Shown in pieces: positions 6,993 through 30,008 of a DNA stretch of 64,000 nucleotides. Made by a program: the position numbers and the translations under genes. The stretch comes from Deltaproteobacteria bacterium. Its GTDB lineage: Bacteria; Desulfobacterota; Desulfuromonadia; Desulfuromonadales; Geopsychrobacteraceae. Below the pieces are notes generated by a model. The model was not told the origin of the DNA. It worked only from the letters and a program-made list of their open reading frames with translations, and searched no databases. The DNA lies in contig JAGYPB010000007.1 in assembly GCA_018399135.1 (NCBI GenBank), positions 1-64,000 on the forward strand, written 5' to 3'. Position 1 is the first letter of the stretch. Each line of letters begins with the position of its first letter.

Positions 6993-7417
6993 TGACCGAC
7001 TTGGCGCTGCCCTGTCCGGCAGAAGAGCTGATCCCGCATCGCCCCCCCATGCGTCTGATTGAGCGTCTGATCGCGATAGACGGCAAAAACGGCATTGTTG
7101 AGGCACGGGTTGGCGCAGCAGCGCTGCTGACGGATGTCGATGGCATGCTCGAAGATGTTGCTCTGGTGGAAATTATGGCGCAATCCTACGCCACCCTGAA
7201 AGGCTACATCGATCGTCGCGATCAGCTCCCGGTACGCCAGGGGTTTCTCGTTGGTATCAAAAAGATGGTGTGCCATGCATCGGTTCAGGCCGATGATTTG
7301 CTGCATGTGCATATCCGTACCATTGCCGAACTTGACAGCTTTGCTGTAGCGGAAGGGGAAATCCGCCGTGGTGATGAATTGATTGCCGCAGGCGATGTCA
7401 AGGTGTGGATCAATTGA
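6992..7417 (+). CDS. Hotdog-fold 3-hydroxyacyl-ACP dehydratase-like (FabA/FabZ superfamily)
   Basis: 'LIPHRPPMRLIERL' and 'VALVEIMAQSYA'; ATG overlaps the lyase stop by 1 nt. Confidence 0.75.
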   Translation: MTDLALPCPAEELIPHRPPMRLIERLIAIDGKNGIVEARVGAAALLTDVDGMLEDVALVEIMAQSYATLKGYIDRRDQLPVRQGFLVGIKKMVCHASVQADDLLHVHIRTIAELDSFAVAEGEIRRGDELIAAGDVKVWIN

Positions 7418-7571: not shown

Positions 7572-8225
7572 ATGAAACCTTTCATAAGGCTCAAACAATT
7601 CATTCTCGTGCTGCTGAGCGGGTTTTTGATGGTGACAATGTCCGTCGCCGCCGATAATAACGAGCTTGAAGTTGTTCTTGAACAACTCAAGGCAGCCGCT
7701 GCCGAGGTGGAAACCCTGCAGAGTACCTTCGTGCAGGAAAAAAACCTCGAGATGTTTGAACAGCAACTGCTCTCCAGTGGCAGGATGCTCTATGTTCAGC
7801 CCGATCAGCTGCGCTGGGAGTTGCTGTCCCCGGTTGCTTCCGGTTTTGTCCTGCAGGGTGATCAAGGGGTGCGCTGGAATGGCGTGAGTCAGCAGCGGCA
7901 ACGCTTTTCCATCAGTGTCGACCCGCTCATGGGGGTGGTGGCACAACAGTTGCTGGCCTGGGCCCGGGTCGATCTCGACTGGTTGCGCGCAAGGTACCAT
8001 ATCAAGATACTGACAACAGAGCCGGTGGTGCTGGAGTTAACCCCCATTGATCCCGGCGAAGCGGAATTTATCGCACATATCCAGGTGACCTTTGATCTGG
8101 TGCAAGACTATGTCAGTGATGTGCTGGTGTTGGAACACTCCGGCGACAGCACGCGGTTGCGTTTTGGCGATGTGCGCAGCAACGATAGTATCGCGCCAGG
8201 GGCCTTTGAACCGCCGGAATTCTGA
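7572..8225 (+). CDS. LolA-like outer-membrane lipoprotein carrier protein
   Basis: Signal peptide; 'VETLQSTFVQEKNLEMFEQQLLSSGRMLYVQPDQLRWEL' typical of LolA-like proteins. Confidence 0.85.
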   Translation: MKPFIRLKQFILVLLSGFLMVTMSVAADNNELEVVLEQLKAAAAEVETLQSTFVQEKNLEMFEQQLLSSGRMLYVQPDQLRWELLSPVASGFVLQGDQGVRWNGVSQQRQRFSISVDPLMGVVAQQLLAWARVDLDWLRARYHIKILTTEPVVLELTPIDPGEAEFIAHIQVTFDLVQDYVSDVLVLEHSGDSTRLRFGDVRSNDSIAPGAFEPPEF

Positions 8226-10597
8226 TGCATTTTTTTTCAAATTGCTATAACCGTCTGCAGGGTCGCCGCGGTTGGCTGCTGCTGGTGCTGTTGGCACTGC
8301 TGGTGCTCAGCGGTTGGAACTTGTCGCGACTGGATATCGAAGACACTATCGTCGCCATGCTTCCCGACGGTGAATCCCAGGTAGCGCGGGATTTTGAGCT
8401 ACTGCAACAATCCCCTTTTGCTCGGAAAGTGGTTATCCACCTGCGTGCCGATTCCACGGCTGCTGTCCCCCTGCTCAATGCGACCACCGCCCAGCTGCGT
8501 GAGGCCTTACCCGAACCCTGGTTTGTAGATCCCCTCAGTGGTCCAGTCCAGATCCATCCCCAGCGTCTGCTCAATGATCTGCTCGAATCCTTGCCCCTGC
8601 TCCTTGATGAGGGTGATCTGGCGCAACTGGAACAGCGTCTTGACGATGAAGGTGTCGAATTGACACTGGCGGAAAATCTTTCCGAGCTATTGCAGCCCCA
8701 AGGGATCTTTGTCCGTGAGCGTATCCGTCGCGACCCCTTTTCCCTCTATCTGGCGGCGCTGGACAAGTTGCGCAGCGTCAACCCCCTGCCGGAAGTACGT
8801 ATCGAAGGGAGGTTCTTTGTCAGTCATGATGGTTTGAGCCGCATGATCCTTGCCGATACCCCGGTTGTCATCACTGATGCCGATGGTGCAAAACAATTGC
8901 TGGACGCCTTCGAACAGGCGCGCCAGTCGTTGCCGGCGGGTATTTCTGCCGAACTGATCAGTGGCCATGCCTATACCCTGGCCAACGCCGAGGTCATTCA
9001 GAGCGACATGCGGACCCTGTTGCTGGTGTCCGGGGGCGGCTTGCTGCTGCTGTTTGTGCTGTTGATTGGCAAATTACGTGCCGTACCGGTGCTGCTGCTG
9101 CCATTTTTCAGTGTCGCCGCCGCCTTGTTGGTGGTGTCCTTGTTTGCGAACCAGGTATCGGGTATTACCATCGGTTTTGGCGCGGTTGTCCTCGGCATCA
9201 CTATCGATTTTGCCCTGCATGTCTATTTTGCCCTGGCCCGGCGTGGGAGTGAGCGCCCGGAAATGTTGCGTCTGGTGGCCCGGCCGGTGGTGTTTGGCGG
9301 TCTGACGACCCTGGCGGCGTTCAGCGTCCTGGCCTTTTCCGACCTGCCCGGTCAGCGCCAACTTGGCCTGTTTGCCGGTGCCGGGATTGTTGCCGCCGTC
9401 CTGCTGGCGCTGCTGGTTCTCCCTCACTTTATCCCGCGCACAGCTGCGGTTGTCCCCGGGGTGCGGCTGAATGGCAAACGTTCGCTACTGGTGCGCTTCC
9501 CTGCCGTGCGTTATGGCGTCATTGGCCTGTGGGCTGCCTTGTGCGGGACGAGTTTGTTGATGCTGCCGCAGCTGTCTTTTAACGGTGAATTACGTCAGCT
9601 TGGCTATCTGCCCGACCAGCTTCAGCAGGCTGAAAAAAGCTTAAATCAGGCCTGGGGGGATGTCCGTGGCCGTGCCATGATTGTTGTCAGCGCCAGCGAT
9701 CTGGAACAACTGCTGCGGCACAATGAACAGGTGTGGCAGGTGTTGGGTGATCAGCAGCTGCAGTCAGAAGCCGTCAGCCTGGCACCGCTACTGCTGTCAG
9801 AGAGAACCCGTCAGCAGCGGATTGCCAATTGGCAACAATTTTGGCAGCAACATCAGGCCCCGACAGCAGAGCGATTAGCTGATCTGGGCACGGGCTATGG
9901 TTTTAGCTCACGTGCCTTTGCTCCTTTTTTCGACCATCTGGAACAGATCCCGGCGCCCACCGATCTTACCGCCCTTGAGAGCTGGGGGCTGGGGGAGCTG
10001 GTCCATGCCCTGTTGCAGGAGGATGAAAACGGCTACCGGCTGATCACCCTGCTGCCTGATCGTCCGGAACAGATAGCCGCTCTGTTGCAACCGGATGTCT
10101 TGCCGGCTGGGACCGTGCTGGTTTCCCAGGGCGTTTTTGCTGACCAGTTGGCGCAGGAAATCGTTGCTGACTTCTATCAGTTCATGAGCTTTGCCGGACT
10201 GGCGGTGGTGTTACTGCTCGGGATGTTGTTTCGCCGTGTGACTGACGTTGTTGTTGCTCTGCTGCCGGCGCTGACCGGACTGCTGGTGTTGCTCGGCGGT
10301 ATGGCCTGGCTTGGGCTGGAGCTGAATCTTTTTAACGTCATTGCCTCTTTGTTGATTATCGGGCTCGGGGTTGATTACGGTATTTTTATGGTCTGTCATG
10401 GCCAGAGCAAGGAAGACCTGGCCTCGGTGCGCGCAGTGCTGGTATCGGGGCTCTCGACCCTGATCGGCTTTGGTGCCCTGACCCTCGCCCAGCACCCGGC
10501 GCTTTTTTCCATCGGCCTGACCCTGCTGCTGGGTATCAGTGCGGCCATGCCGACGGCGATTCTGGTCCTGCCGGCGTTACGGAGGCAACAGCAATGA
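8225..10597 (+). CDS. MMPL/RND-family exporter
   Basis: 790 aa, two sets of TM segments; 'GFGAVVLGITIDFALHVYFAL' and 'LLIIGLGVDYGIFMVCHG'. Confidence 0.9.
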   Translation: MHFFSNCYNRLQGRRGWLLLVLLALLVLSGWNLSRLDIEDTIVAMLPDGESQVARDFELLQQSPFARKVVIHLRADSTAAVPLLNATTAQLREALPEPWFVDPLSGPVQIHPQRLLNDLLESLPLLLDEGDLAQLEQRLDDEGVELTLAENLSELLQPQGIFVRERIRRDPFSLYLAALDKLRSVNPLPEVRIEGRFFVSHDGLSRMILADTPVVITDADGAKQLLDAFEQARQSLPAGISAELISGHAYTLANAEVIQSDMRTLLLVSGGGLLLLFVLLIGKLRAVPVLLLPFFSVAAALLVVSLFANQVSGITIGFGAVVLGITIDFALHVYFALARRGSERPEMLRLVARPVVFGGLTTLAAFSVLAFSDLPGQRQLGLFAGAGIVAAVLLALLVLPHFIPRTAAVVPGVRLNGKRSLLVRFPAVRYGVIGLWAALCGTSLLMLPQLSFNGELRQLGYLPDQLQQAEKSLNQAWGDVRGRAMIVVSASDLEQLLRHNEQVWQVLGDQQLQSEAVSLAPLLLSERTRQQRIANWQQFWQQHQAPTAERLADLGTGYGFSSRAFAPFFDHLEQIPAPTDLTALESWGLGELVHALLQEDENGYRLITLLPDRPEQIAALLQPDVLPAGTVLVSQGVFADQLAQEIVADFYQFMSFAGLAVVLLLGMLFRRVTDVVVALLPALTGLLVLLGGMAWLGLELNLFNVIASLLIIGLGVDYGIFMVCHGQSKEDLASVRAVLVSGLSTLIGFGALTLAQHPALFSIGLTLLLGISAAMPTAILVLPALRRQQQ

Positions 10598-11262
10598 TAC
10601 TGCGGATTGTTTTGTCTCTGGTGTTTCTGTTCAACGCTGCCTGCGCCCCGGTTCCGCAGCCGCTTGATCTCAACGAGATCTGTTTGCAGGAGCTCTCTGC
10701 CGCTGAGGTTACTGAACTGCACTGGCTTAATCGGGCCGATACCTGGCGGTTACGCCAGAGTGCACTGTTGGAATTGCGTGGACGAAAAGTTGCCCTTGAA
10801 GGGTTCATGGTTCTTGACCTGGGCGCACAGCGGTTGCACATGGTTGCTATGAACGAAATGGGTGTGGTGTTTTTCGAATTGATCGTGACACCAGAAAGTC
10901 AAGAATTGCGCCGGGTCCTGCCGCAATTGCAGCAGCAGCCTGGTCTGGCAGAGGGGATTGCTGCCAGTCTGCGACGTATCTATCTGGATCCTCAGCCCCG
11001 AAGAACCGATCAGGCACAGATGTCCAAAACCAGCCTGCGTTTGTGGCGTTCGCTGACGGACGGGGATTTGAGTTTTACCTTTGATTGCGATGGCCGGTTG
11101 CGCAAGACACGACAGCGCAGTGGTACTCAAAACTGGCAGATTATCTATGAAAATTATCACCTGGTAGCAGACCGGGCTGTGCCGGAAAAAATTCTGATGA
11201 ATGAGTTGCAGCATGCTGTCACCTTGACACTGTGGCAAAGAGAGATCACTTTAGAACCATGA
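10594..11262 (+). CDS. Putative lipoprotein, DUF3261-like as found in aryl polyene clusters
   Basis: Lipobox 'LFNAAC'; position after MMPL and before a dehydratase; ATGA overlaps on both sides. Confidence 0.6.
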   Translation: MILRIVLSLVFLFNAACAPVPQPLDLNEICLQELSAAEVTELHWLNRADTWRLRQSALLELRGRKVALEGFMVLDLGAQRLHMVAMNEMGVVFFELIVTPESQELRRVLPQLQQQPGLAEGIAASLRRIYLDPQPRRTDQAQMSKTSLRLWRSLTDGDLSFTFDCDGRLRKTRQRSGTQNWQIIYENYHLVADRAVPEKILMNELQHAVTLTLWQREITLEP

Positions 11263-11639
11263 ATCAGATGCGAGAAGCCATTCATCAAGCTGCTGTAGCA
11301 CCACCCCGGATAAGCGCCGGTCACGGCCGCCAGCAATATCGGTTTGGCACAAACTTTCCTGGCTTTTCCGGTCATTTCCCCGGTTATCCGGTGTTGCCTG
11401 CAGTGCTGCAATCCCTGCTTGCGCAAATGCTGGCTGAGCAGATTGTCGGTCGAGCATTATGTTTTAAAACATTGCAACAGGCGAAGTTTACTCGTCAGGT
11501 GCGCCCCGATGAACAGCTTGACGTTACTGTTGAATGCCGGCAACAGCAGGGGGGATACCGTTGTCAAGCGATCTTGACAATCGCTGATGAGCGCGCGGCC
11601 CAGTTTGTCCTGTTCCTTGAAGAGAGATCTACATCATGA
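11259..11639 (+). CDS. Second hotdog-fold dehydratase-like protein (ApeI/FabZ-like)
   Basis: 'NFPGFSGHFPGYPVLPAVLQSLLAQMLAE' resembles FabZ 'GHFPGxPVxPG'. Confidence 0.75.
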   Translation: MNQMREAIHQAAVAPPRISAGHGRQQYRFGTNFPGFSGHFPGYPVLPAVLQSLLAQMLAEQIVGRALCFKTLQQAKFTRQVRPDEQLDVTVECRQQQGGYRCQAILTIADERAAQFVLFLEERSTS

Positions 11640-12097
11640 GAAAACCATATTTTCGCCTCTGCAATGATGCCCCAGAGCCACTGCGCACCCGCGTACAGCG
11701 CACCGTGCGTTTTGAAGAGGTTGATCCGTTGGGTATTGTCTGGCACGGACGTTATCCGAGCTATCTGGAGGACGGACGGGTTGCTTTGGGGAGTAACTAC
11801 GGCCTGGGTTATATGGATTTTTATCATCAGGGGGTGATGGCGCCGATCAAGCAGATGCATCTGGATTATCAATTGCCTCTGCGTTTTGAGGAGGAATTTA
11901 CTATTGAAGCGCTGCTGCACTGGAGTGATGCCACTCGCCTCAACCATGAGTTTATATTGCGTAACCGCGCTGAGCAGGTGGTCACGTCTGGCTATACGGT
12001 GCAGTTACTGACCGATCCGCAGCAGCGCGTGCTCCTGGTGCCGCCGCCTTTCTACGAAGAATTTCGCCGGCGTTGGCGCTCCGGAGAGCTGCTATGA
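11636..12097 (+). CDS. Acyl-CoA/ACP thioesterase, YbgC/4HBT-like
   Basis: 'VRFEEVDPLGIVWHGRYPSYLEDGRVAL' 4HBT signature. Confidence 0.85.
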   Translation: MRKPYFRLCNDAPEPLRTRVQRTVRFEEVDPLGIVWHGRYPSYLEDGRVALGSNYGLGYMDFYHQGVMAPIKQMHLDYQLPLRFEEEFTIEALLHWSDATRLNHEFILRNRAEQVVTSGYTVQLLTDPQQRVLLVPPPFYEEFRRRWRSGELL

Positions 12098-13224
12098 AGC
12101 AGGTGGTGCTCAGTCGTTCGGCCCTGGTCACCCCCCTGGGTGATGGTGGTGATACCCTGTGGCAGCAGTTGGTTGCCGGGGGTACCGCCATTGCCCCCCT
12201 GACGCGCTTTGCTACGGGAAACTACATCAGTTCTTATGCCGCCTGTATCGAGGGGCTGGTGGCCGCGGACGCAGAGTCATTGATGGCTCCCCTGTTGGAG
12301 CGGGTGGCAGAGCAGATGGGCCCGGTTCCAGCGGATTGCCGCTTGCTCATCGCTACCACCAAGGGTGAGATCGACCGCCTCGAAACTCGCAGTCGCGCCG
12401 GTCTGGCACCGACTTTGGCTGATTTGCCGGAAGCTTTTATCCGGCAGGTAGAGCAGCGCTTTCATCTGCCCCCCGGGGGGTTGAATATCAACGCCGCCTG
12501 TGCTTCATCCACCATCGCGGTGGCCCGTGGTGCCGCGCTGATTGCCGCTGGTCAGGCTTCTGCGGTGCTGGTGTATGCGGCGGATCTGGTCAGTGAGTTC
12601 GTTTTCTCCGGCTTTTCAGCGTTGCAGGCTCTCTCGCCGCACGTCTGCCGCCCTTTCGATCAGCAGCGCAGTGGTCTTAATCTAGGCGAGGCCGGAGTTG
12701 CCCTGCTACTTCTTGACGAAGAGCGGGCGCTGCAGAATAAGGCACCGATCATGGCACGGATTGCCGGGTGGGGGGCGGCCAATGATGCCCATCACGTCAC
12801 CGCCCCGGCGCGTGATGGTTGCGGTCTGATACTCGCCTGTCGCCAGGCCCTCAGCAGCGCTGAGATCAGCGCAGAGCAGATCTGCGCCATTAATGCCCAT
12901 GGCACCGGCACCTTGTATAACGATGCGATGGAACTTACCGCCTTTCATGCCTTGTTTGCTGAAAGACTGCCACCGTTGCACGGTATCAAGGGAAGTATCG
13001 GTCATTGCCTCGGCGCCGCCGGTGCGGTCGAGGTAGCGGTAGGTGCGCGCGCCCTGGCCGAGCAATTGTTGCCGCCGACCGTTGGCTGCCGTAATCCGGA
13101 AGCGGTCAGTGACGGCCGGGTCGGGGAAAAACAGCAGCCGCTCAGTGGTGATTATCTGCTCTGTTGCAATTCCGGTTTCGGCGGTATCAACGGGGCCCTG
13201 GTGTTGCAGAGGATCATGTCATGA
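12094..13224 (+). CDS. Beta-ketoacyl-ACP synthase (ketosynthase)
   Basis: 'NINAACASSTIAVARGAALI' with Cys; 'NAHGTGTLYND'; 'KGSIGHCLGAAGAVE'. Confidence 0.9.
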   Translation: MKQVVLSRSALVTPLGDGGDTLWQQLVAGGTAIAPLTRFATGNYISSYAACIEGLVAADAESLMAPLLERVAEQMGPVPADCRLLIATTKGEIDRLETRSRAGLAPTLADLPEAFIRQVEQRFHLPPGGLNINAACASSTIAVARGAALIAAGQASAVLVYAADLVSEFVFSGFSALQALSPHVCRPFDQQRSGLNLGEAGVALLLLDEERALQNKAPIMARIAGWGAANDAHHVTAPARDGCGLILACRQALSSAEISAEQICAINAHGTGTLYNDAMELTAFHALFAERLPPLHGIKGSIGHCLGAAGAVEVAVGARALAEQLLPPTVGCRNPEAVSDGRVGEKQQPLSGDYLLCCNSGFGGINGALVLQRIMS

Positions 13225-13934
13225 CAGGATGGATCAACGGGATCGGCTGGGTATCAACAATGGGTTGCGGCCGCGGTCGTACGGCAGGCTTAGTGCCGAT
13301 CTGGAATGACAGGCTGGCCATCCCGGCGCGCAAAGATTTATTCGCCCATACGGATCTGCGTTTTGGTCGCCTTGATGGCTTTTCGCGAACCGGTCTGGCC
13401 GGAATCACCATGTGCCTGCGGGATGCCGGCCGTGAAGAATGGCAGGACAAGCGTGCGATTGCCACCATGGCGGTAACCACAAGTGGTTGTTTGCAGACCG
13501 ATCTTGATTATCAGGCAACAGTCATTGAAGGTGACGGTAAGCTGGCAAGTCCCAATCTGTTCGCCTATACGCTGCCCAATTGTTTTCTCGGTGAAGCTGC
13601 ACTGCGCTTCGGGTTGACCGGCAACAGTCTGATTCTGCAGCAGAATGGCGGCGCTGATCTGGATGTGTTGAGCCGGGCGCTGGAGGAACTGACATGGAGC
13701 GGCAGCATCGGGGTTATCGCCGGATTTTGTGAGGTGCCGGTAGCCGGATTGGCATGTCCCCCCACTGGTTATGGGAGCCTCTTTGTGTTGATCGAGGGCA
13801 TCCCTGACCCTCAGTCCGGGTGTTATGGTAAGCTCACCTTAACAGGCAACAAATTATTTTTTAATGATACCCCGCTTGCAAGTTTTACTCACCTGATGGA
13901 CGCGTGTTTTACGGTAACTGATCGCCGTGTATAG
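13221..13934 (+). CDS. Truncated/degenerate beta-ketoacyl synthase-like protein (chain-length-factor-like)
   Basis: 'RLDGFSRTGLAGI', 'SPNLFAYTLPNCFLGEAALRFGLTGNSL' KS N-terminal-like; no Cys at the nucleophile position ('LILQQNGGADLD'). Confidence 0.7.
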   Translation: MTGWINGIGWVSTMGCGRGRTAGLVPIWNDRLAIPARKDLFAHTDLRFGRLDGFSRTGLAGITMCLRDAGREEWQDKRAIATMAVTTSGCLQTDLDYQATVIEGDGKLASPNLFAYTLPNCFLGEAALRFGLTGNSLILQQNGGADLDVLSRALEELTWSGSIGVIAGFCEVPVAGLACPPTGYGSLFVLIEGIPDPQSGCYGKLTLTGNKLFFNDTPLASFTHLMDACFTVTDRRV

Positions 13935-13969: not shown

Positions 13970-15223
13970 ATGAAGATGGAGTTAATCTATCCCCGCTGGC
14001 CGAAGCTTGACCGACAAACCGAGTTTCACTTGCCGCCTCATGGGCCGGTGGTGTTTGCTGCGGCTCTGCCGGATGATGTCGACCTGACATTCACCGATGA
14101 CAACCTGCAGCCGATTGATTTCGATACCGACTGCGACCTGGTGGCCATTTCGACCATGCTGACTTCCCAATTACCACGGGCGTTCGAGATTGCCCGTGAA
14201 TTCCGTCAACGCGGCAAAAAAGTTATCTTTGGCGGCATTTCGACCATGCTCCATGCCGAGGAAGTGCAACAGCACGCAGACGCGGTTTTTTTAGGTGAGG
14301 TTGAAGGGCGGATCGATGCGGTGCTGGATGATTTTCGTCGCGGGGAGCTGAAGCCTGTCTATGATTACATGCACCAGCATCCCGATATCGAGCTGGTCGG
14401 AACCGCGCGCCGCGAGATCCTCGACCGTGAACTGTATAACTATCGTGGGGTGCAGATGCTCGATCTGGTTCATGCTTCGCGCGGTTGCAAGTTTGATTGT
14501 TTTCCCTGCTGTACCGGTTTTCTCGGCGGCAAGACGTTTCGCCCGCGTCCCATCGACAAAGTCATCGAAGAAATGGAAGCGATCCGGAATAACCGCTTGT
14601 TTATTGTAGACAACTCCCTGGCCCAGGATCGCGACTGGTTGCTGGAGCTATTCAAGGCGATGGAGCCGTTAAAGAAAAAATGGGTTTCTCATCCGATTCT
14701 GGATGATGATGAAGTGCTTAAATGGGCGGCAAAAGCCGGGGCCTGGTATGTTTACCAGGCGGTGTTTGACACTTCCGATACTATCCGCAACCGGGTTCGC
14801 AGGCTCAAAGATCACGGCATCGGGGTTGAGGGAACCATTATCCTTGGCACCGACGATCAATCCGAGGATGACATCAAACGGTTGGTCGATTTTCTTCTCG
14901 AAATCGAGCTGGATGTTGCTGAATTTACCATTCTGACTCCCTTTCCCCAGTCCCCCATCCGTCGTAAGCTGGCACAGGAAGGGAGAATTCTCTCCAATGA
15001 CTGGAGCCGGTATACCGCCGACAAGGTGGTGTTTCAACCGAAACAAATGTCCCCGGAAAAACTCCAGGAGCTCTATTACTACGCCTGGGATCATTTCTAT
15101 GCCCAGAGCGGACATCAGCTCAAAATGGGTGAACTGTTCAAACAGGTTATTCGCCGTGAGATGGATGATGGCACCTACCATCGTTATAATCCGCGCAAAC
15201 GGCGGATCTTTCAAAAGGCGTGA
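13970..15223 (+). CDS. Radical SAM protein with B12-binding-type N-terminus
   Basis: CX3CX2C 'RGCKFDCFPC'; N-terminal Rossmann-like B12-binding-type region. Confidence 0.88.
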   Translation: MKMELIYPRWPKLDRQTEFHLPPHGPVVFAAALPDDVDLTFTDDNLQPIDFDTDCDLVAISTMLTSQLPRAFEIAREFRQRGKKVIFGGISTMLHAEEVQQHADAVFLGEVEGRIDAVLDDFRRGELKPVYDYMHQHPDIELVGTARREILDRELYNYRGVQMLDLVHASRGCKFDCFPCCTGFLGGKTFRPRPIDKVIEEMEAIRNNRLFIVDNSLAQDRDWLLELFKAMEPLKKKWVSHPILDDDEVLKWAAKAGAWYVYQAVFDTSDTIRNRVRRLKDHGIGVEGTIILGTDDQSEDDIKRLVDFLLEIELDVAEFTILTPFPQSPIRRKLAQEGRILSNDWSRYTADKVVFQPKQMSPEKLQELYYYAWDHFYAQSGHQLKMGELFKQVIRREMDDGTYHRYNPRKRRIFQKA

Positions 15224-15226
15224 GGA

Positions 15227-16588
15227 ATGAGCCGGATTTTTATCCTCTCCAGTAACACCGCTATTGACCCTTATCCGGTCTATCCGTTGGGGATGGCGGT
15301 GGTTGCGGGAATATTACAGACCGCCGGGCATCAGGTGATGCAGCATGATTGCCTGGCTCAGGGGGCTGAACCACAATTGCTGAAAGAAAAAATTCGGCGA
15401 TTTTCTCCCCATATCCTCGCCTTGTCGTTGCGAAATATCGACAATGTCGATTCTTTTTCCGGTGATGCCGGCTGGTTTTTGCACGCGGCCAGAGCGCTGG
15501 TCGCATCCTTGCGGCTGATTAGTCCTGTTCCGATAGTTGTCGGTGGCCCGGCGTTGACCATTATGCCCGAAGCGATTGCTGACTATCTTCAGGTTGATCA
15601 TGCCATTGTTGGTGAGGCGGAATGCACTTTTCCGGAACTGGTGGCAGCACTGGAGCGCGGTGAAACTCTTCCCCGGGTGATTCAGCGCGGTCTGCCTGTC
15701 TCTGGTAGCGAGTTTGGTGTCCCTGTTTATGATCCGGAGCTGGTGAGCTTTTACCAGCAGCACAGTGGCATGCTGAATCTGCAGACCAAACGTGGCTGCC
15801 CCTACCGGTGCAGCTACTGTTCCTATCCTCATCTGGAGGGGGGACAATTTCGGGTACGTGACCCGCTTCAGGTGGTTGATGAGCTGCAACGACTTAAAAG
15901 CGACCATGGCACAAATCATGTGTTTTTTACTGATTCGGTCTTCAATGATCCCAGAGGCCAGTATCTTCAGCTGGTCGAGGAAATCTTGCGCGCTGATCTC
16001 GATCTGAAGTGGTCGGCTTTTTTCCGCCCCCAGGGATTTGGTCACCAGGAACTGAAGCTGATGAAGCGCGCCGGTCTTTATGCTCTGGAGCTGGGAACGG
16101 ACGCAGCCAGTGATGCAACCCTGGCAGGAATCAGTAAGGGCCTGACCTTTGCTGAAGTGCTCGAAATAAATGATGCCTGTATCAAGGAGCGCTTGCCGGC
16201 AGCACATTTCGTTATGTTTGGCGTTCCCGATGAAACTGAAGTGACGGTGAGTGAAGGGCTAGAGAACATGAAAGCTCTGCGAGAGTCGGTGGTGTTTGCT
16301 TTCTCCGGCATCCGTATTCTGCCGGAGGCACCCTTACATCGTCGGGCTATCAGCGACGGGGTGATTGCTGCTGACACCCCACTACTTAAACCGGTTTATT
16401 ATTTTTCACCGCAGATTGACCGACAGTTGATGGAAGACCGTATCACCGTAGCCTTTGCCAAAAAACGCAACCGGATTTTCCCTCCGTCAGAAGGGTTGTT
16501 GCGGATGACCGCCATGAAGGGTTTTGGTTTCGTCGGTCTGATGTGGAATCATCTGGTTCGCTTCCCCCCGGCAGCAGCGGTTGAATAA
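15227..16588 (+). CDS. Radical SAM protein with B12-binding-type N-terminus
   Basis: 'KRGCPYRCSYCSYP'; N-terminal 'PLGMAVVAGILQTAGHQV...PIVVGGPALTIMPE...VGEAECTFPEL'. Confidence 0.9.
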   Translation: MSRIFILSSNTAIDPYPVYPLGMAVVAGILQTAGHQVMQHDCLAQGAEPQLLKEKIRRFSPHILALSLRNIDNVDSFSGDAGWFLHAARALVASLRLISPVPIVVGGPALTIMPEAIADYLQVDHAIVGEAECTFPELVAALERGETLPRVIQRGLPVSGSEFGVPVYDPELVSFYQQHSGMLNLQTKRGCPYRCSYCSYPHLEGGQFRVRDPLQVVDELQRLKSDHGTNHVFFTDSVFNDPRGQYLQLVEEILRADLDLKWSAFFRPQGFGHQELKLMKRAGLYALELGTDAASDATLAGISKGLTFAEVLEINDACIKERLPAAHFVMFGVPDETEVTVSEGLENMKALRESVVFAFSGIRILPEAPLHRRAISDGVIAADTPLLKPVYYFSPQIDRQLMEDRITVAFAKKRNRIFPPSEGLLRMTAMKGFGFVGLMWNHLVRFPPAAAVE

Positions 16589-16597
16589 GGTGCTATC

Positions 16598-18046
16598 GTG
16601 CCTCAGTTGAACGAACAACATATTCTGCTGGTTCATCCTTTGGGATACCAGAGCGAAGCTGCGCAGCAGGATATTTCCCGGCGCGCTAATATCATGCCCC
16701 CGCTGGGATTGGCGAGCATGGCCGCCTATCTGAACGCGGCGGGGTTTGTCTGCCGTATTCTCGACTGTTACGCTCATCCCGATGCCGATCAGCGCCTGCG
16801 TGAGTTGTTGCGTGATTTCCGCCCTTTTCTGCTGGGGATCAGTTGCACCACCGCCAGCTTTCACGATGGTGTTCGGTTGACGCAGCTGGCCAAAGTTGAA
16901 ACTCCGGGAATCCAGGTGGTGTTTGGTGGCCCTCACGTATCGGCCCTTCAGGATAAAGTGATTGAATTTTCTCCCCTGATTGATGGGGCGGTCATCGGTG
17001 AGGGAGAACAGACTCTGCTCGAACTGGCTAAACGTGGCGGCGAGGCGTCGGAAAAGATCCCTGGCCTGGTCTGGCGTGATGCGAACGGCAAGTCGGTCAA
17101 CAATGGTTATCGTCAGCAGCAGATCGTTCTTGATGACCTGCCTTTTCCCGCTTACGAGCTGCTTGAAGGCTATCCGCAAACCTACAGTCTGCCAATTTTT
17201 AACTACCCGAAAACCCCCAATACCAGCTGTCTTTCCAGTCGCGGTTGCCCTTATCAGTGCAGTTATTGTGATCGCAGCGTGTTTCGCCGCACCTTCCGTT
17301 TCAACTCAGCGGATTATCTTTATCGCCACCTGACGTATCTCAAAGAACGTTTCGGCATCCGTCATATAAACTTCTATGACGATCAGTTTACTTTTCATCG
17401 TGACCGGGTTGAGGAGTTCTGTCGGCTGATGATCGATAAACCCCTGGGGATGACCTTCAATTGCGCGGTGCGCGCCAATCATGTTGATCGTGATCTGCTT
17501 AAACAGATGAAAGCTGCCGGTTGCTGGATGGTCAGCCTGGGTATCGAAAGTGGCGACGCGGAATTGCTGGCGCAACATCGTCAGAACGTTGATCTCGATC
17601 ATCTGGGTGAGACTATCCGCATCATCAAAGGCTGCGGTATCCGCGTCAAGGGGTTGATGATGATGGGGCTGCCGGGGGAAACGGAAGCCTCGATCCGCCG
17701 CAGTATGGACTATTTTCTCTCTCTGCCCATCGATGATATGAACCTCGCCAAGTTTACCCCTTTCCCCGGTTCACCCTTGTACAAAGAGATCCATCAGCAT
17801 GGCAGCTTTGATGAGGACTGGCCGAAGATGGATTGCATGCATTTTCAGTTTATCCCTGACGGCATGGATAAAGAAGTTCTCGAAAAACTGTTCATCGAGT
17901 TTTATAAACAGCACTTCAAGCGCCCACGTATCCTCGCCGGCTACGTCGCGATGCTATGGAAATCGCCGGATAGCTGGCTGCGTTTTATCGCCAGCAGTGG
18001 CCAGTTTCTGCGCTTTGCCTTCAGTAACAAGCGTTATGGGAAGTAG
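16598..18046 (+). CDS. Radical SAM protein with B12-binding-type N-terminus (BchE/HpnJ-like class)
   Basis: 'SRGCPYQCSYCDRSVF'; 'PPLGLASMAAYLNAAGF...QVVFGGPHVSAL...VIGEGEQTLLEL'. Confidence 0.92.
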   Translation: MPQLNEQHILLVHPLGYQSEAAQQDISRRANIMPPLGLASMAAYLNAAGFVCRILDCYAHPDADQRLRELLRDFRPFLLGISCTTASFHDGVRLTQLAKVETPGIQVVFGGPHVSALQDKVIEFSPLIDGAVIGEGEQTLLELAKRGGEASEKIPGLVWRDANGKSVNNGYRQQQIVLDDLPFPAYELLEGYPQTYSLPIFNYPKTPNTSCLSSRGCPYQCSYCDRSVFRRTFRFNSADYLYRHLTYLKERFGIRHINFYDDQFTFHRDRVEEFCRLMIDKPLGMTFNCAVRANHVDRDLLKQMKAAGCWMVSLGIESGDAELLAQHRQNVDLDHLGETIRIIKGCGIRVKGLMMMGLPGETEASIRRSMDYFLSLPIDDMNLAKFTPFPGSPLYKEIHQHGSFDEDWPKMDCMHFQFIPDGMDKEVLEKLFIEFYKQHFKRPRILAGYVAMLWKSPDSWLRFIASSGQFLRFAFSNKRYGK

Positions 18047-18051
18047 GAAAA

Positions 18052-19500
18052 ATGATGATTATTGAATTGCTCCGCTCCGACGAAGGTAAAACCCTGGAAT
18101 TCAAACAGGATCTTTCCTCACCACGCAATCTACTCAAGACGCTGGTAGCTTTTGCCAATACTGCCGGAGGTAAGATCATCATCGGTGTTAAGGATAGGAC
18201 CCGTCAGGCGATAGGTGTCGACAACCCGTTGGATGAAGAGGAGAGGCTTTGCAACCTGATTGCTGATTCCATCTCTCCCCGGCTGGTTCCTAATGTTGAA
18301 ATGACCACGGTAGATGGCAAAACATTGCTTATTGTTGAAGTTTTTCTGAGTAATTCACGGCCTCACTATCTTCGCTCTGAGGGTGAGCAAGTTGGGGTCT
18401 ATGTTCGACTTGGCTCGACCAACCGCCAGGCTGACCCTGAGTTGATCGCCGAATTACGTCGTTCTGTTGAAGGGGTGTCTTTCGATGAGATGCCCATGCC
18501 GGAGCTATCTATTGATGATCTGGATATCAGCGCAGCACAGGAGACATTTGGTGCTGACCGAACTTTAAACGAACAATCTTTGTTGACCTTGAAACTGTTG
18601 GTACGCCATCAAAACAAAGTGGTACCGACCAAAGGAGGTGTCCTTCTCTTCGGCAGGCAGCGGAATCAGTATTTCTCTGACGCCTGGATCCAATGTGGTC
18701 GTTTCTTTGGTACCGAGAAAATTGATATTTTCGACCACAGTGATATTGATGTGTCGCTGCCGCATGCCGTTGATGAGGTCATGCTGTTTCTGAAAAAGCA
18801 CGCTTATCGCAGCGCCGATCTCTCCGAAGTACGCCGCAAGGATGTCTGGAGTATCCCTCTGGGGATTTTGCGCGAAGTGATCATTAACGCCATTGTGCAC
18901 AGCGACTATTCGCAACGTGGTGCACCCATCCGGGTTGTCTTTCTTGATGATCGCATAGAGGTGGAAAGTCTGGGTATCCTTCTACCCGGGCTGACCATTG
19001 AAGAGATAAAACAAGGTACTTCACGCATTCGAAATCCAGTCATTGCCCGCATTTTCAAGGAACTTCACCTGATCGAACAATGGGGTACAGGGGTGCGCCG
19101 TATTTTTGCAGAGGCCCAGGAGCAGGGGTTGCGGGAGCCAAAAATTGAAGAAATCGGACTGCGCCTGCGTTTCACTATCTACTTGGCTGCACCACACGTT
19201 ATCCAGAGTAATGTACGAAAGACTAAACTAAAGGCACAAGTCGAGGCACAAGTCGAGGCACAAGTCGAGGCCCGGATTTTACAGGCGTGCACAGAACGTC
19301 CTCTGTCCTCAGCTGAAGTTGCAGCTACGCTTGGACACAAGAAATTGAGCGGCAATGTTCGTAAGGCTCTTCCGGCTCTGCGGGATGCAAGATTGCTGGA
19401 ATATACCATCCCGGACAAACCTAACAGTCGCCTGCAGAAATATCGGCTGACAGCTCTGGGTAGAGAAAAACTCAGGCAGTTGGCCGGGGAAAAGAAATGA
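18052..19500 (+). CDS. AlbA_2 (Schlafen-type) DNA-binding domain / RecG-like C-terminal ATP-binding regulator
   Basis: 'EGKTLEFKQDLSSPRNLLKTLVAFANTAGGKIIIGVKD' AlbA_2; 'PLGILREVIINAIVHSDYSQRGAPIRV' and 'LIEQWGTGVRRI'. Confidence 0.88.
   Translation: MMIIELLRSDEGKTLEFKQDLSSPRNLLKTLVAFANTAGGKIIIGVKDRTRQAIGVDNPLDEEERLCNLIADSISPRLVPNVEMTTVDGKTLLIVEVFLSNSRPHYLRSEGEQVGVYVRLGSTNRQADPELIAELRRSVEGVSFDEMPMPELSIDDLDISAAQETFGADRTLNEQSLLTLKLLVRHQNKVVPTKGGVLLFGRQRNQYFSDAWIQCGRFFGTEKIDIFDHSDIDVSLPHAVDEVMLFLKKHAYRSADLSEVRRKDVWSIPLGILREVIINAIVHSDYSQRGAPIRVVFLDDRIEVESLGILLPGLTIEEIKQGTSRIRNPVIARIFKELHLIEQWGTGVRRIFAEAQEQGLREPKIEEIGLRLRFTIYLAAPHVIQSNVRKTKLKAQVEAQVEAQVEARILQACTERPLSSAEVAATLGHKKLSGNVRKALPALRDARLLEYTIPDKPNSRLQKYRLTALGREKLRQLAGEKK
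19234..19269 (+). repeat. 12-bp x3 in-frame tandem repeat (GCACAAGTCGAG), encoding AQVE repeats
   Basis: Three exact copies read directly from sequence; protein ...KAQVEAQVEAQVEAR... Confidence 0.95.
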
Positions 19501-20687
19501 CTTCCACCCCCACCCGATATTTCATCGCCATCCCCGTTTACAACCACGGCGCGAGTTTACGCCAGGTGGTGGAAGGGTGTTTGCGTCATCATGACCGGGT
19601 GCTGGTGGTTGATGATGGCAGCAGGGTGGCGGTGGCGGATCTGGTTGTGGATCTGCCGGTCGAACTGGTGCGCCATGAGTCTAATCAGGGCAAGGGTGCA
19701 GCGCTGTTGATGGCGGCGCGGTGGGGGCTTGAAAACGGTTTCAGCCATATGGTCTGTCTGGATGCCGACGGTCAGCATGATCCCGATGATCTACCCGGTT
19801 TTTTTGCCGCCATCAAGGAGGATCCCCTGGCGATTGTTGTCGGTCATCGCGATTTTGATCAACAGGGTATTCCCGGCAGCTCCCGTTTTGGCCGTCAATT
19901 TTCCAATTTCTGGTTGCGCGTGCAGACCGGAATCCGCCTCAAGGATGTGCAAAGTGGTTACCGGGCTTATCCTCTGGTGATTTTCCGTTATTTGAATTTC
20001 TGGACCCGGCGTTACAATTTTGAGGTCGAGGTGCTGGTACGGGCGGCCTGGGCGGGACTGCCTTTGAAGGATCTGGATATTGCGGTTTACTACCCGCCGG
20101 CCGCTGAGCGGATCTCACATTTTCGCAAATTCATGGACAACTGGCGCTTGACCCTGCTCAATACCCACTTGACCTTGCGCTCGATTGTCCCCTGGCCCCA
20201 TCGCAAGATTGTCACAGCTGGAAAAGGGGCACTACCGGAAGAAACGGTTTCCGTGTTGCGGCCGTTAAAGTCTCTGCGCTTTTTGTTGCTGCAGAATATT
20301 ACTCCCCGCGGTCTGGCCCTGGCTGCTGCTCTGGGGGTGTTGCTTGGCACCTTGCCCCTGCTGTTCTGCCATACGGTGGCGATTCTGTTTGCCTGCAGTT
20401 TTTTCGGGTTGAACAAGGTGGTGGCGGTGAGCAGCAGTCAACTGTGTATGCCGCCGCTCGTCCCGGCCTTGTGTATTCAGGTGGGTTACTTTATGCGTAA
20501 TGGTGAATGGTTGACGGAACTTACCCTGCAGACTCTGGGCCATGAGGCTTTACAGCGACTTTATGAGTGGCTGTTGGGGTCCCTGGTATTGGCCCCCTTA
20601 CTGGCGGTGTTGGTTGGTGGTTTAACCCTGTTGCTGGCGTTACTGGTAAAAAGCCAGGGATTGGTGGGAGTGTCGACCCGTGAGTAA
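19497..20687 (+). CDS. Glycosyltransferase family 2 with C-terminal DUF2062-like membrane domain
   Basis: 'AIPVYNHGASLRQVVEGCLRHHDRVLVVDDGS', 'LDADGQHDPDD'; hydrophobic C-terminal domain. Confidence 0.88.
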   Translation: MTSTPTRYFIAIPVYNHGASLRQVVEGCLRHHDRVLVVDDGSRVAVADLVVDLPVELVRHESNQGKGAALLMAARWGLENGFSHMVCLDADGQHDPDDLPGFFAAIKEDPLAIVVGHRDFDQQGIPGSSRFGRQFSNFWLRVQTGIRLKDVQSGYRAYPLVIFRYLNFWTRRYNFEVEVLVRAAWAGLPLKDLDIAVYYPPAAERISHFRKFMDNWRLTLLNTHLTLRSIVPWPHRKIVTAGKGALPEETVSVLRPLKSLRFLLLQNITPRGLALAAALGVLLGTLPLLFCHTVAILFACSFFGLNKVVAVSSSQLCMPPLVPALCIQVGYFMRNGEWLTELTLQTLGHEALQRLYEWLLGSLVLAPLLAVLVGGLTLLLALLVKSQGLVGVSTRE

Positions 20688-21573
20688 CTGGACAAGTCGC
20701 AGCATCGGTCGCGATTGGCAGCATCGCTTCTTTTATCTGGCGATCAAACTGGGTGGCCGGCGCCTGGCCTATCTGTGCCTCTATGTGGTGGTGGCCTGGT
20801 ATGCGCTGTTCAGTGCGGTTGCCAAAGAACGCGCCAGTCATTATCTGGCACGGCGTTTCCCCGCCGCCGGTCCGTGGGAGCGTTTTGGGCGGCGCTATCG
20901 GTTGATTTTGACCTTTGGTCAGGTGTTAATCGACCGGGCCATGGTTGGCATTATTGGTGCCGAGCGGATCAAGGTTCAGTTGCACGGCAAGAATGCGTTG
21001 CTGAATCTGCTTGCCGAAGGCAAAGGGATGATTCTGGTCAATGCCCATGTCGGTTGCTGGCAGGTCGCTATGTCGTCCTTAAGTTTTATGGAAACACCGG
21101 TTAACCTGTTGATGCAGCGTGAAGAGGGGGATATCGACCGTCACTATTTCGAACACGCCGGTATTGAGTGTCCCTACCATATCATCGATCCACGCGGGTT
21201 TTTGGGCGGAGCCCTGGAAATGATGGAGGTTCTTAAACGCGGTGAAGTGTTGTCGGTGATGGGGGATCGCATGCTCGGGGATGATCAGAATGGGGTTCCG
21301 GTCGAATTTCTCGGCGAACAGGTGACCATGCCTTTTAGTGCCTATAAACTGGCGTCGGCAACGGGAACACCAATTGTGGCTCTGTTTTCCTACAAAACCG
21401 GGCCGGACAGTTACGATTTGAAACTCTATCGAACAATCCGGGTGCCGCCGGGTTTGGGCCGTGATCAGCAGGCTTTTGTACCCTATGTTCAGGAGTTCGC
21501 CGCCAGCCTGGAAGAATTTTCCCGGGAACACCCATTTCAATTTTTCAATTTCTTTAACATGTGGTACGAATAA
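20680..21573 (+). CDS. LpxL/HtrB-like lipid acyltransferase
   Basis: 'NAHVGCWQVAMSSL' (HX4-type) and membrane-anchored N-terminus typical of LpxL/HtrB-like proteins. Confidence 0.82.
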   Translation: MSNWTSRSIGRDWQHRFFYLAIKLGGRRLAYLCLYVVVAWYALFSAVAKERASHYLARRFPAAGPWERFGRRYRLILTFGQVLIDRAMVGIIGAERIKVQLHGKNALLNLLAEGKGMILVNAHVGCWQVAMSSLSFMETPVNLLMQREEGDIDRHYFEHAGIECPYHIIDPRGFLGGALEMMEVLKRGEVLSVMGDRMLGDDQNGVPVEFLGEQVTMPFSAYKLASATGTPIVALFSYKTGPDSYDLKLYRTIRVPPGLGRDQQAFVPYVQEFAASLEEFSREHPFQFFNFFNMWYE

Positions 21574-21655: not shown

Positions 21656-21916
21656 ATGATTATGAGTGTCAAAGAAAAACTTAAGCAGGTATTAATTGAA
21701 GACCTCAATTTGGAAGATCTGACCCCTGACATGATCGAGGATGAAATGGCCCTGTTTGGTGACGGTCTGGGCCTCGACTCCCTCGACGCAGTGGAGCTGG
21801 TGGTGGTAGTTCAAAAACATTTTGGTGTAGAAATCAAAGATATGGACGAAGGGCGACCAGCGTTGCAGTCGATCAGTACCCTGGCGAAATTTATCGAGGA
21901 GAAGCAGGCGCAATGA
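21656..21916 (+). CDS. Acyl carrier protein
   Basis: 'GDGLGLDSLDAVELVVVVQKHFGVEI'. Confidence 0.93.
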   Translation: MIMSVKEKLKQVLIEDLNLEDLTPDMIEDEMALFGDGLGLDSLDAVELVVVVQKHFGVEIKDMDEGRPALQSISTLAKFIEEKQAQ

Positions 21917-23106
21917 CCTGTTCTTTACCGGTTGTCGTTACCGGTCTCGGTTGTCTGTCCGGAGCCGGGATGAACCTGAACGAAAACCTGAAGAACCTGT
22001 TTGCCGGTTGCCGCTATCCGGGGGCGCCGATCCGTTTTTCCACTGATCACCCGGTGGCCTATCCGGTGCTGGAATTGCGAGATGCGTTCAAACTGCCGTT
22101 GGATGAGGATCAGCTGGTCTACGCCCGGACCGGCCAATTGGCCCTGGCGGCGGCGCTGGGAGCCTTGAGTGCGGCTGGTTACGAGGAAGCATCGCTACGC
22201 GGTCGACGTGTCGGTGTTTGTATCGGTACTACCGTCGGTTGTGCCCTGAACTGTGACGATTTTTACCGCGATTACAAAGCGGGTAAAAATCCGGGAATGG
22301 CCATTATCGAGCGCTATCTGCGCAGCAACCCGGCAGCAGTTATTGCCCGCCAGCTCAAATTGAACGGGCCGGTTCAAACCGTGGTCAACGCCTGTTCATC
22401 CGGTACCGATGCCATTGGTCTGGGGGCGTCCTGGTTACGCTCCGGTGCCTGCGATATCGTTATCAGCGGTGGTGCCGACGAACTGTCGCGCGTGACCTAT
22501 GCCGGGTTTAGTTCCCTGATGATTACCGACACCGAACCCTGCAAGCCATTTGACGTCAATCGCAAGGGGTTGAATCTGGGGGAAGGTGCGGGGATCATGA
22601 TCCTTGAACGCGCTGACCGGGTTGACAAGACGCGGATTCTTGGCCGGGTTCTTGGTTATGGCTCGGCTTGTGATGCCCACCACCTGACCGCACCTCGACC
22701 GGATGGCGCCGGCCTCAAAGCTGCCCTCGCCGAAGCCTTCCGCACAGCAGATGTTGGGGCGAAGCAGATTGCTTTTGTCAACGCCCATGGCACCGGTACC
22801 CCTGACAATGATCGCATCGAGGGGCGGGTGCTGAACGAGGTTTTGCCCGGGGTTCCTTTTTTGTCGACCAAGGGGTATACCGGTCACACCCTGGGGGCCG
22901 CGGGTGCTATCGAGGCGGTTTATACCCTGGCCTGTCTTAATCGTGGTGAGATTCCCGCCAGCATCGGTTTTGCCGAACTGGATCCGCAGATACCGGTCAC
23001 CCCAGTGACAGTTAACACCCCCCTTGGTGGTCATATTGGCCTGTCTCAATCCCTGGCCTTTGGTGGCAACAACGCTGTGCTGATTTTGGCCGCAGGAGGA
23101 GCTTGA
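21913..23106 (+). CDS. Beta-ketoacyl-ACP synthase (ketosynthase)
   Basis: 'VVNACSSGTDAIGLGASWL', 'NAHGTGTPDND', 'KGYTGHTLGAAGAIE'. Confidence 0.92.
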   Translation: MTCSLPVVVTGLGCLSGAGMNLNENLKNLFAGCRYPGAPIRFSTDHPVAYPVLELRDAFKLPLDEDQLVYARTGQLALAAALGALSAAGYEEASLRGRRVGVCIGTTVGCALNCDDFYRDYKAGKNPGMAIIERYLRSNPAAVIARQLKLNGPVQTVVNACSSGTDAIGLGASWLRSGACDIVISGGADELSRVTYAGFSSLMITDTEPCKPFDVNRKGLNLGEGAGIMILERADRVDKTRILGRVLGYGSACDAHHLTAPRPDGAGLKAALAEAFRTADVGAKQIAFVNAHGTGTPDNDRIEGRVLNEVLPGVPFLSTKGYTGHTLGAAGAIEAVYTLACLNRGEIPASIGFAELDPQIPVTPVTVNTPLGGHIGLSQSLAFGGNNAVLILAAGGA

Positions 23107-23107
23107 T

Positions 23108-24176
23108 ATGCGCCTGGCGATTCAGGGAATCGGAATAACCGGCAGTTTCGGTGCCGGGGTTGACGCACTGCGCAGCGCCCTGCAAAGCAAAACAGTTGCT
23201 CCGCAACAACTTACTGTGGATCACCATGACGGGGCGAGGGACAGCTTTCCAGCCTATCGCGCAACAACGGAAGGCTTAGAGCGCTTTCTGCCCAAGCGAG
23301 AACTGCGACGGATTGACCATTTTTCCAAGATGACCCTGCTTGCCGCCCATCTTGCCCTGGAAGATGCTGGGCTACTTGAAGCTGATCGTTCCCGGATTGG
23401 CGTGGTGGTGGCTAGCGGCTATGGGCCCCTGAAAACCACCTTCAATTTTCTCGATTCCTACCTCGATTTCGGTTATTCCTGCAGCTCGCCAACCCACTTT
23501 TCTAATTCTGTGCATAATGCTGCCGCCGCCCACGTGTCGATGCAGTTGAAGTTAACTTCACCCAGCCTCACGGTTACCCAGTTTGAGATGTCCGTTGCCT
23601 CCGCGCTTTTAAGTGCCCGGCAATGGTTGGCGGAAGGGCGTGTCGATCGGGTTCTTTTTGGTGCGGCTGATGAATATTGCGAGGTGTTGCGTTACTGTCG
23701 TCGACATGTTTTTGCTGATGGTGAGCAGGGGCCGCTCCGTCCTCTGGATCTGGAGGTACAGACCGCTATGGCTGGTGAGGGAGCGGTGTTTATGGTGCTG
23801 GAGTGCGCTGATGAAGCGGCGGCATACGCCGCTATTGATTCCGTTATCCTGGGCAACCATGCTGTTGCTCCGCTCACAATGCCGCCTGGCGGCAGCTGTG
23901 GTCGCAGGAGCCGATGGCCACCGCCAGTGCGGACGATGGTATGCTGAGGTCCTGTCCGATCTGCCGGTTGTGGCCTGTTCCCCCTATTATGTGGCAGCTT
24001 TCCGGCCGCCGCCGGTTTTGACCTGGCAGCAGCGGCGTTGATGATGCGTGATCAGCAGCTTTATGCCGGGCCACAGGATGCTGCTGCCAATCTCCATGAG
24101 TCGGCTGTTACCCCTCATGGCGTCGATGGAACACTGGCCTGCCTCAAATTCTCTCGGGGCGGCGATTACGGTTTAA
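23108..24176 (+). pseudogene. Cys-less ketosynthase (chain-length-factor-like), C-terminus frameshifted
   Basis: ORF 23108..23947 is KS-like with Glu at the nucleophile position by ungapped alignment to the neighbour ('TQFEMSVASAL'); the continuation 'GSFPAAAGFDLAAAALMMRDQQLYA' lies in another frame at ~23990-24176. Confidence 0.75.
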
Positions 24177-24177
24177 T

Positions 24178-24744
24178 ATGTCTATCACGCTGAGATTTCT
24201 GTGTCAGATGATGGTTACGGGGGCTCTGGTTCTGGGTGCTGCCGGATTGGTTGCCGCGCAGGAGTCTTCTCCCCGTTACGGTCTGGCACTGATCGCTGGC
24301 CAGGCCTATGATCCGGATCGTTTCGGGTTGGTGATTCTGCAGGGGAATGTGCAATTGCCCTATGATCAGGTGTTCTGGCATGACGCACCCGATAGCCTCT
24401 TTTTTAAAGGGGAGTTCAACCTTGGCGTGACCACCGATGGCCGTGACCGCGTACTGGCAGCGGTCAACATAATGGCGGTAAAATATTTCGACACGTTCTC
24501 TTCCTCCTCCTGGCAGCCTTACCTCGAGGGGGGAATTGGCGTTGTTTATACCGATTTTCGGGTCAAAGGGCAGGGGCTGCGTTTTAATTTCAATCCCCAG
24601 ATCGGAGTCGGAATTGCTTTTAGACCGGCCCATGGCAGAGAGATAAGTGTTGGCTTGCGTTTGCACCATTTGTCCAATGCTGACCTGCATCGTGACAACC
24701 GCGGGATCAATAGCTTGCTGATGGTGGCGGGGGTGCGTTTCTAG
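24178..24744 (+). CDS. PagL-like lipid A 3-O-deacylase / outer-membrane beta-barrel
   Basis: Signal peptide, alternating beta-barrel pattern, C-terminal 'GLRLHHLSNADLHRDNRGINSLLMVAGVRF' with PagL-like H-x-S-N-A. Confidence 0.75.
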   Translation: MSITLRFLCQMMVTGALVLGAAGLVAAQESSPRYGLALIAGQAYDPDRFGLVILQGNVQLPYDQVFWHDAPDSLFFKGEFNLGVTTDGRDRVLAAVNIMAVKYFDTFSSSSWQPYLEGGIGVVYTDFRVKGQGLRFNFNPQIGVGIAFRPAHGREISVGLRLHHLSNADLHRDNRGINSLLMVAGVRF

Positions 24745-29911: not shown

Positions 29912-30008
29912 AGTTTAGATTTCCAGCGTAAAATAAAGGTTGATTTACAGGTGCGCTACAGGTTAATTCCCGCGACTTTTTTTGTAAATTTTAAAACTTA
30001 CTGTATCT

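Follow-up and report, generated by a model that had tools for sequence, protein, structure and literature searches.

A conserved triplet of B12-binding-type radical SAM genes in a predicted flexirubin/aryl-polyene-type gene cluster of Desulfuromonadia

The radical SAM triplet and its occurrence

The stretch of DNA analyzed here (the window) comprises the first 64,000 nucleotides of contig JAGYPB010000007.1 from a Deltaproteobacteria bacterium of the family Geopsychrobacteraceae (assembly GCA_018399135.1). Three consecutive genes on its forward strand encode proteins with B12-binding and radical S-adenosylmethionine (SAM) domains, namely, rS1 (13970–15223, 417 aa), rS2 (15227–16588, 453 aa) and rS3 (16598–18046, 482 aa, with a GTG start). 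The open reading frames are intact and contiguous, with intergenic gaps of 3 and 9 bp. All three products pass the Pfam cut-off of 32.1 bits for the B12-binding domain (32.4, 53.7 and 78.5 bits for rS1, rS2 and rS3, respectively). Against the Radical_SAM domain, rS2 and rS3 score 60.4 and 85.5 bits, and rS1, with 28.8 bits, falls marginally under the cut-off of 29.5; judged by its sequence, rS1 is a divergent member of the superfamily. Each protein carries a CX3CX2C motif (CKFDCFPC in rS1, CPYRCSYC in rS2 and CPYQCSYC in rS3), whose three cysteines do not vary among the aligned orthologues (n = 24, 19 and 19, respectively). The original prediction, made from the DNA alone, of three adjacent same-strand genes of this type is thus borne out by the reading frames, the Pfam matches and the conserved cysteines.

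Pairwise profile comparisons of the three proteins yield just 21–24% identity, which rejects a recent tandem duplication and indicates that rS1, rS2 and rS3 represent three distinct old families. rS2 is a full-length member of the NCBIfam family TIGR04072 (rSAM_ladder_B12, 'lipid biosynthesis B12-binding/radical SAM protein'), scoring 645 bits against a cut-off of 360 and covering 443 of 443 positions. rS1 and rS3 lie outside this family (44 and 96 bits). For rS1, no curated NCBIfam family was found, the top score being 58 bits, and rS3 stays under every cut-off, its top family models being HpnJ (188 bits, cut-off 578) and BchE (158 bits, cut-off 481). The HpnR model reaches at most 84 bits among the three proteins (cut-off 650), and that of AprD4 (cut-off 500) gives 30 bits with rS1 and 113 bits with rS3. 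The closest solved relative of rS2 is the tryptophan 2-C-methyltransferase TsrM (6wte), with only 22% identity; here the match between the predicted rS2 model (pLDDT 83.7) and TsrM in Foldseek (TM 0.78–0.81) agrees with the sequence search, where TsrM ranks first with 95 bits. The predicted model of rS1 (pLDDT 78.6) is most similar to the radical SAM diol dehydratase AprD4 (6fd2; TM 0.72–0.74), which is also the top match of rS3 among solved chains (102 bits).

We surveyed 277 genomes of the class, counting orthologue-level matches. rS1 is present in 62, rS2 in 62 and rS3 in 66 genomes. All three genes co-occur in 57 genomes and are side by side in 49 of these, a number that rises to 51 if gaps of 240–250 bp are allowed; rS1 and rS2 are adjacent in 58 of 59 genomes. 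Contiguity in 49 genomes of the class shows that the arrangement is not due to chance. In 40-kb neighbourhoods from 20 genomes, the gene order is alike in most cases and beta-ketoacyl synthase (KS) genes accompany the triplet in all 20. Conservation of the triplet thus extends to its location beside polyene KS and acyl carrier protein (ACP) genes and, almost without exception, to its gene order.

Beyond the class, a scan of named genomes with an rS1 alignment as query recovered at least 540 rS1 relatives; a first scan of named genome contigs with rS2 alone gave no match. The best 80 of these relatives are 64–89% identical to rS1 and come from several phyla. Their carriers include Desulfuromusa kysingii, Geothermobacter, Halodesulfovibrio, Desulfobacteraceae, Nitrospirae, Omnitrophota, Victivallis vadensis and records labelled Phycisphaerales and Elusimicrobia, some of the labels deriving from metagenome bins and being possibly wrong. 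Among the same 80 records, several of which are short contigs, rS2 is found in 60 and rS3 in 37. In the more distant records rS1 retains 64–70% identity, whereas KS genes at the same loci mostly show 30–51%, suggesting that rS1 is under unusually strong constraint. In an Acidobacteria record, an rS1 of 75% identity is flanked by queuosine-biosynthesis genes on one side and complex I genes on the other, and polyene genes are lacking for 10 kb around it. A Citrobacter portucalensis plasmid (NZ_CP134684.1, 52126–63512) harbours a cassette of five radical SAM genes, one of them 33% identical to rS1, together with genes for a GH3-type ligase, an acetyltransferase, a PAP2 phosphatase and a fatty acid desaturase.

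The surrounding gene cluster and a fourth radical SAM gene

The triplet is embedded in a gene run that occupies approximately the first 32 kb of the window, on the forward strand up to position 28353. The run begins with the 3' end of a KS gene truncated by the contig start (9–311; 32% identity to the next KS). In a related genome (G049) its orthologue is intact, with 409 aa, and is preceded by a FabG-like gene; in relatives, the operon opens with FabG followed by this KS. Next come an FAD oxidoreductase of the CrtI/CrtD, phytoene-desaturase-like type (315–1793; Pfam Amino_oxidase, NCBIfam CrtD 92 bits), the KS KS_a, recognized by Pfam and NCBIfam (1784–3019), the first ACP (3006–3266; Pfam PP-binding) and a PlsC-like acyltransferase (3287–4084; Pfam Acyltransferase). 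They are followed by a FlxY-like aryl-CoA/ACP ligase (4081–5406; NCBIfam FlxY 432 bits, cut-off 520) and an aromatic amino acid lyase of the histidine ammonia-lyase (HAL) family (5403–6992; Pfam Lyase_aromatic 552 bits; FlxA 468 bits, cut-off 700). In a phmmer search, the nearest solved structures to the lyase are tyrosine aminomutases, with which it has an RSH motif in common. The motif alone was rejected as a discriminator between HAL and tyrosine ammonia-lyase (TAL), given that HAL-like residues occur at this motif position (motif 1) in FlxA of C. pinensis as well (PMC3992019). Between the lyase and the triplet lie genes for an ApeP-like dehydratase (6992–7417; Pfam ApeP-like 23.5 bits, under the cut-off, aligned with its G049 orthologue), a LolA-type periplasmic carrier (7572–8225; Pfam LolA; LolA2_flexi 95 bits, cut-off 125), an MMPL/RND exporter (8225–10597; Pfam MMPL), a LolB/DUF3261-like lipoprotein (10594–11262), a FabA/FabZ-like dehydratase (11232–11639), a 4HBT thioesterase (11636–12097), KS_b (12073–13224) and a divergent KS-like protein with a weak FabF match, possibly of the chain-length-factor type (13164–13934). 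The gene for the latter is directly 5' of rS1 in most relatives.

Downstream of rS3, a gene for a Schlafen/AlbA_2-type ATP-binding protein with a HATPase_c_4 domain (18052–19500; Pfam) separates the triplet from a GT2 glycosyltransferase fused to DUF2062 (19497–20687). The Schlafen-type gene is missing from all 20 relatives examined and appears to be a passenger inserted into the operon of this genome. The run continues with a lipid A-type (LpxL-like) acyltransferase (20680–21573), the second ACP (21656–21916), KS_c (21913–23106), the KS-like KS_d (23108–24190; frame locally disrupted near 23850–23947), a PagL-like lipid A deacylase (24178–24744), a DarG-family protein (24748–25248; DarG_fam 152 bits, cut-off 70), the BtrH-related acyltransferase DarH (25209–26270; DarH_acyl 470 bits, cut-off 300), an ABC transporter ATPase (26267–27031) and an ABC-2 permease (27043–28353; frame-disrupted near its 3' end, near 28100). 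DarG and DarH are above the curated cut-offs, and FlxA, FlxY and LolA2 are represented by clear homologues that score under theirs. Pfam searches of the cluster revealed neither a class-I methyltransferase nor an oxygenase. By its predicted gene content, the locus is a flexirubin/aryl-polyene-type cluster, and the Pfam and NCBIfam matches around the triplet confirm the earlier placement of the three genes inside the KS/ACP run of a polyene cluster.

On the reverse strand, the window encodes a DarB-type KS (28840–29913; in this assembly broken by some ten frame changes) and, directly behind it, a fourth B12-binding/radical SAM protein, rS4 (30771–32059; frame change near 31115), which the original prediction had missed. 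Frame changes cluster in KS_d, the ABC-2 permease, darB and rS4, reflecting either assembly error or decay. The darB–rS4 tandem recurs in all 14 loci where DarB was found. In G049 the pair lies at locus L040 (12786–15231), and its DarB, which is intact, scores 601 bits with the StlD/DarB model (cut-off 450) and 513 bits with resorcinol_DarB (cut-off 550). No DarA-like gene was recognized beside darB; DarA was not searched genome-wide, and no DarA model was located. Likewise, no annotated DarA is present in DarB neighbourhoods on plasmids.

Proposed target and chemistry of the triplet

Comparison of gene content among relatives shows how loosely the triplet and the genes for the aryl starter are tied. 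A TAL-like lyase, FlxY and DarG/DarH are present in most Desulfuromonadia clusters examined, and within the 20 neighbourhoods the lyase gene is found inside 12 and elsewhere in the genome for two more. Thus, the association of the triplet with KS and HAL-family genes, as originally proposed, holds throughout for the former but only in part for the latter. In G042 and G125, both lyase and ligase are encoded elsewhere in the genome. The clusters of three complete or near-complete genomes, namely, G063 (a single contig), G094 and G232, contain the triplet and KS genes without FlxY or lyase, and no orthologue-level lyase or ligase was found elsewhere in these genomes either. The converse is seen in G163, which keeps the lyase, FlxY, KS genes and rS3 and is devoid of rS1 and rS2. 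A strict tie of the triplet to the lyase is rejected by these comparisons. In G203, G189 and G258, rS1–rS2 and FlxY are retained, a lyase is absent and rS3-like genes are located elsewhere. Two of them, G203 and G258 (L070 and L065), encode an ApeP fusion with a radical SAM/SPASM domain after FlxY, where the lyase would usually be. In another locus (L144), a B12-binding/radical SAM gene is followed by one for a stand-alone homologue. As in G163, rS3 is present in G164, G174 and G176 with no orthologue-level rS1 or rS2. A second, more distant type of cluster occurs in the Geobacter-like genomes G252, G253 and G182 (L159–L162, L166–L167). It contains KS, ACP, GT2, LpxL, LolA and MMPL homologues along with rS1-, rS2- and rS3-like genes and, in some cases, rS4-like genes; tblastn with the window genes gave no lyase or FlxY match in these clusters.

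Persistence of the triplet in clusters devoid of lyase and ligase indicates that it goes with the polyene core and not with the lyase-made starter, and points to this shared core as the target. We infer that the substrate of the enzymes is the polyene chain or head group, bound to ACP or a lipid carrier, rather than a free starter derived from an amino acid. Our preferred, still tentative reading, with a probability of roughly 0.4, is that rS1–rS3 serve as core tailoring enzymes in an anaerobic lipid pathway of the flexirubin/aryl-polyene type. C-methylation by rS2 and radical tailoring by rS1 and rS3 are favoured by the TsrM and AprD4 matches, by the lack of a class-I methyltransferase in the cluster and by the methionine-derived ring methyl of characterized flexirubin, for which a methyltransferase step has been proposed (PMC3992019). 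rS2 would use methylcobalamin as donor to methylate an sp2 carbon in either the aryl head or the polyene. rS1 and rS3, nearest to AprD4, HpnJ and BchE, would carry out further O2-independent radical steps on the same intermediate, with dehydration, desaturation, a second methylation and ring formation as candidates. The LolA/MMPL system would then export the finished polyene for attachment to a lipid of the outer membrane. In loci with darB, the polyene would be joined to a resorcinol, for which rS4 may, as a conjecture, serve as an O2-independent stand-in for the DarA of aerobes. A more elaborate version of the anaerobic flexirubin-type pathway, with the tailoring chemistry taken over by B12-binding/radical SAM enzymes, is speculative and rather unlikely; in it, rS1–rS3 would modify the polyene core, rS4 would perform an O2-free, DarA-like aromatization beside DarB, and a radical SAM/SPASM domain would replace the tyrosine lyase in some lineages.

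Several observations weigh against the preferred reading. AprD4, the top fold match of rS1, is a cobalamin-independent enzyme. The cluster-binding loop of rS1 (residues 153–180) is modelled with low confidence, the fold matches are at only 14–22% identity, and none of the triplet enzymes has a characterized orthologue. The cluster in the window is truncated at the contig start. Finally, G163 lacks both rS1 and rS2, and G191 lacks rS1 alone of the triplet; therefore, the rS1–rS2 pair is dispensable in some lineages.

Among the alternatives, the one that survives best, doubtful as it is, assigns the triplet to a general anaerobic pathway for polyunsaturated or 'ladderane-like' fatty acids, where the radical SAM enzymes would pre- or post-process a polyunsaturated chain by desaturation or cyclization, the aryl head being a later add-on. 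The combination of radical SAM proteins, a phytoene-dehydrogenase-like enzyme, a PaaK-like ligase, MMPL and divergent FabFs fits the clusters described under this heading in 2009 (PMC2649909), and TIGR04072, the family of rS2, is named after ladderanes. The clusters of G063, G094 and G232, as well as the rS1-bearing ones of G252, G253 and G182, are also what such a pathway would predict, having no lyase or FlxY. However, ladderanes were not found in the lipids of D. psychrophila, which carries a cluster of this kind (PMC2649909), and expression of 34 anammox candidate genes in Escherichia coli yielded no ladderanes (PMC4790861). The prevalence of the TAL-like lyase, FlxY and DarG/DarH in the Desulfuromonadia clusters examined likewise speaks against it.

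Somewhat less probable is the original proposal that the triplet methylates or oxygenates, independently of O2, the aryl ring that originates from the lyase in the cluster. The resemblance of rS2 to TsrM, which methylates an aromatic carbon, and the ring methyl of flexirubins are in line with it, and the missing class-I methyltransferase and oxygenase leave room for methylation without O2. By contrast, action on a ring made by the lyase is weakened by retention of the triplet in G063, G094 and G232 and by the full lyase/ligase cluster of G163 without rS1–rS2. The accompanying idea that the radical SAM enzymes replace oxygenases of aerobic producers follows a weak logic: a coumarate head derived from TAL needs no ring oxygenase, and methylation is independent of O2.

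A role of the triplet in making the starter or another small precursor, instead of tailoring the chain, is improbable. The SPASM–ApeP fusions at the lyase position in G203 and G258 imply that radical SAM enzymes may, in this family, replace starter enzymes, but rS1–rS3 co-occur with an apparently complete lyase/ligase route to the starter. Lastly, HpnJ and BchE are the top family models of rS3, but with HpnJ and BchE scores at a third of the curated cut-offs, HpnR also far below its own, and synteny of the triplet with polyene KS genes over many genomes, an assignment to hopanoid or bacteriochlorophyll synthesis genes parked in the cluster is rejected as very improbable, in keeping with the original prediction.

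Comparison with known systems

Few bacterial pigments are as widespread as the aryl polyenes and flexirubins, whose characterized members come mainly from oxygen-using bacteria; a 2025 preprint calls flavoaffinins the first such pigments from an obligate anaerobe (PMC11839114). The radical-SAM-rich version of the cluster is common in anaerobic lineages, with the close similarity of rS1 extending across phyla, and under the preferred reading, flexirubin chemistry would be tied to the 'ladderane-like' clusters, which have long been unsolved. Named, culturable carriers of rS1 suited to functional work are, for example, Desulfuromusa kysingii, Geothermobacter hydrogeniphilus, Halodesulfovibrio spirochaetisodalis and Victivallis vadensis. 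In the literature searched, which mostly left out subscription papers, no characterized case of radical SAM enzymes combined with aryl polyene or flexirubin synthesis was found.

The locus as a whole is not without precedent, and to call it an undescribed system, as was done originally, is too strong: rS2 belongs to a named family, and similar clusters of radical SAM and type II fatty acid synthesis genes were reported by Rattray et al. in 2009 from K. stuttgartiensis, D. psychrophila, Geobacter and Pelobacter (PMC2649909). Those authors interpreted them as a pathway for polyunsaturated fatty acids or ladderanes, with Kuste3343/DP1855 and Kuste3342/DP1853 as radical SAM genes (PMC2649909). 'Ladderane' clusters have since been seen in metagenomes from many non-anammox phyla, their function being unknown (PMC9902471). 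The window locus resembles the 2009 clusters in having several FabF paralogues, ACPs and radical SAM genes in an anaerobic host, as well as a phytoene-dehydrogenase-like oxidoreductase, a PaaK/F390-type ligase and an MMPL-like membrane protein. Compared by gene content, the entire set of radical SAM, CrtI-like, PaaK-like, MMPL and divergent KS genes is present. Unlike the 2009 clusters, it also encodes flexirubin components, namely, the TAL-like lyase, the FlxY-like ligase, DarG/DarH and a darB remnant. With the flexirubin clusters of Chitinophaga and Flavobacterium, it shares the lyase/ligase start, the type II set of KS, ACP and dehydratase, LolA, the exporter, the acyltransferase, the glycosyltransferase and DarG/DarH, with a DarB-type KS in relatives (PMC3992019). 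A methyltransferase and DarA are part of the flexirubin proposal (PMC3992019); four B12-binding/radical SAM genes are found in the window cluster. As far as could be found, the anaerobic flexirubin-type reading, the unusual conservation of rS1 and the darB–rS4 pair appear to be new. The feature itself is real, widespread and biologically coherent, and represents a variant of a cluster type that is known but has yet to be explained.

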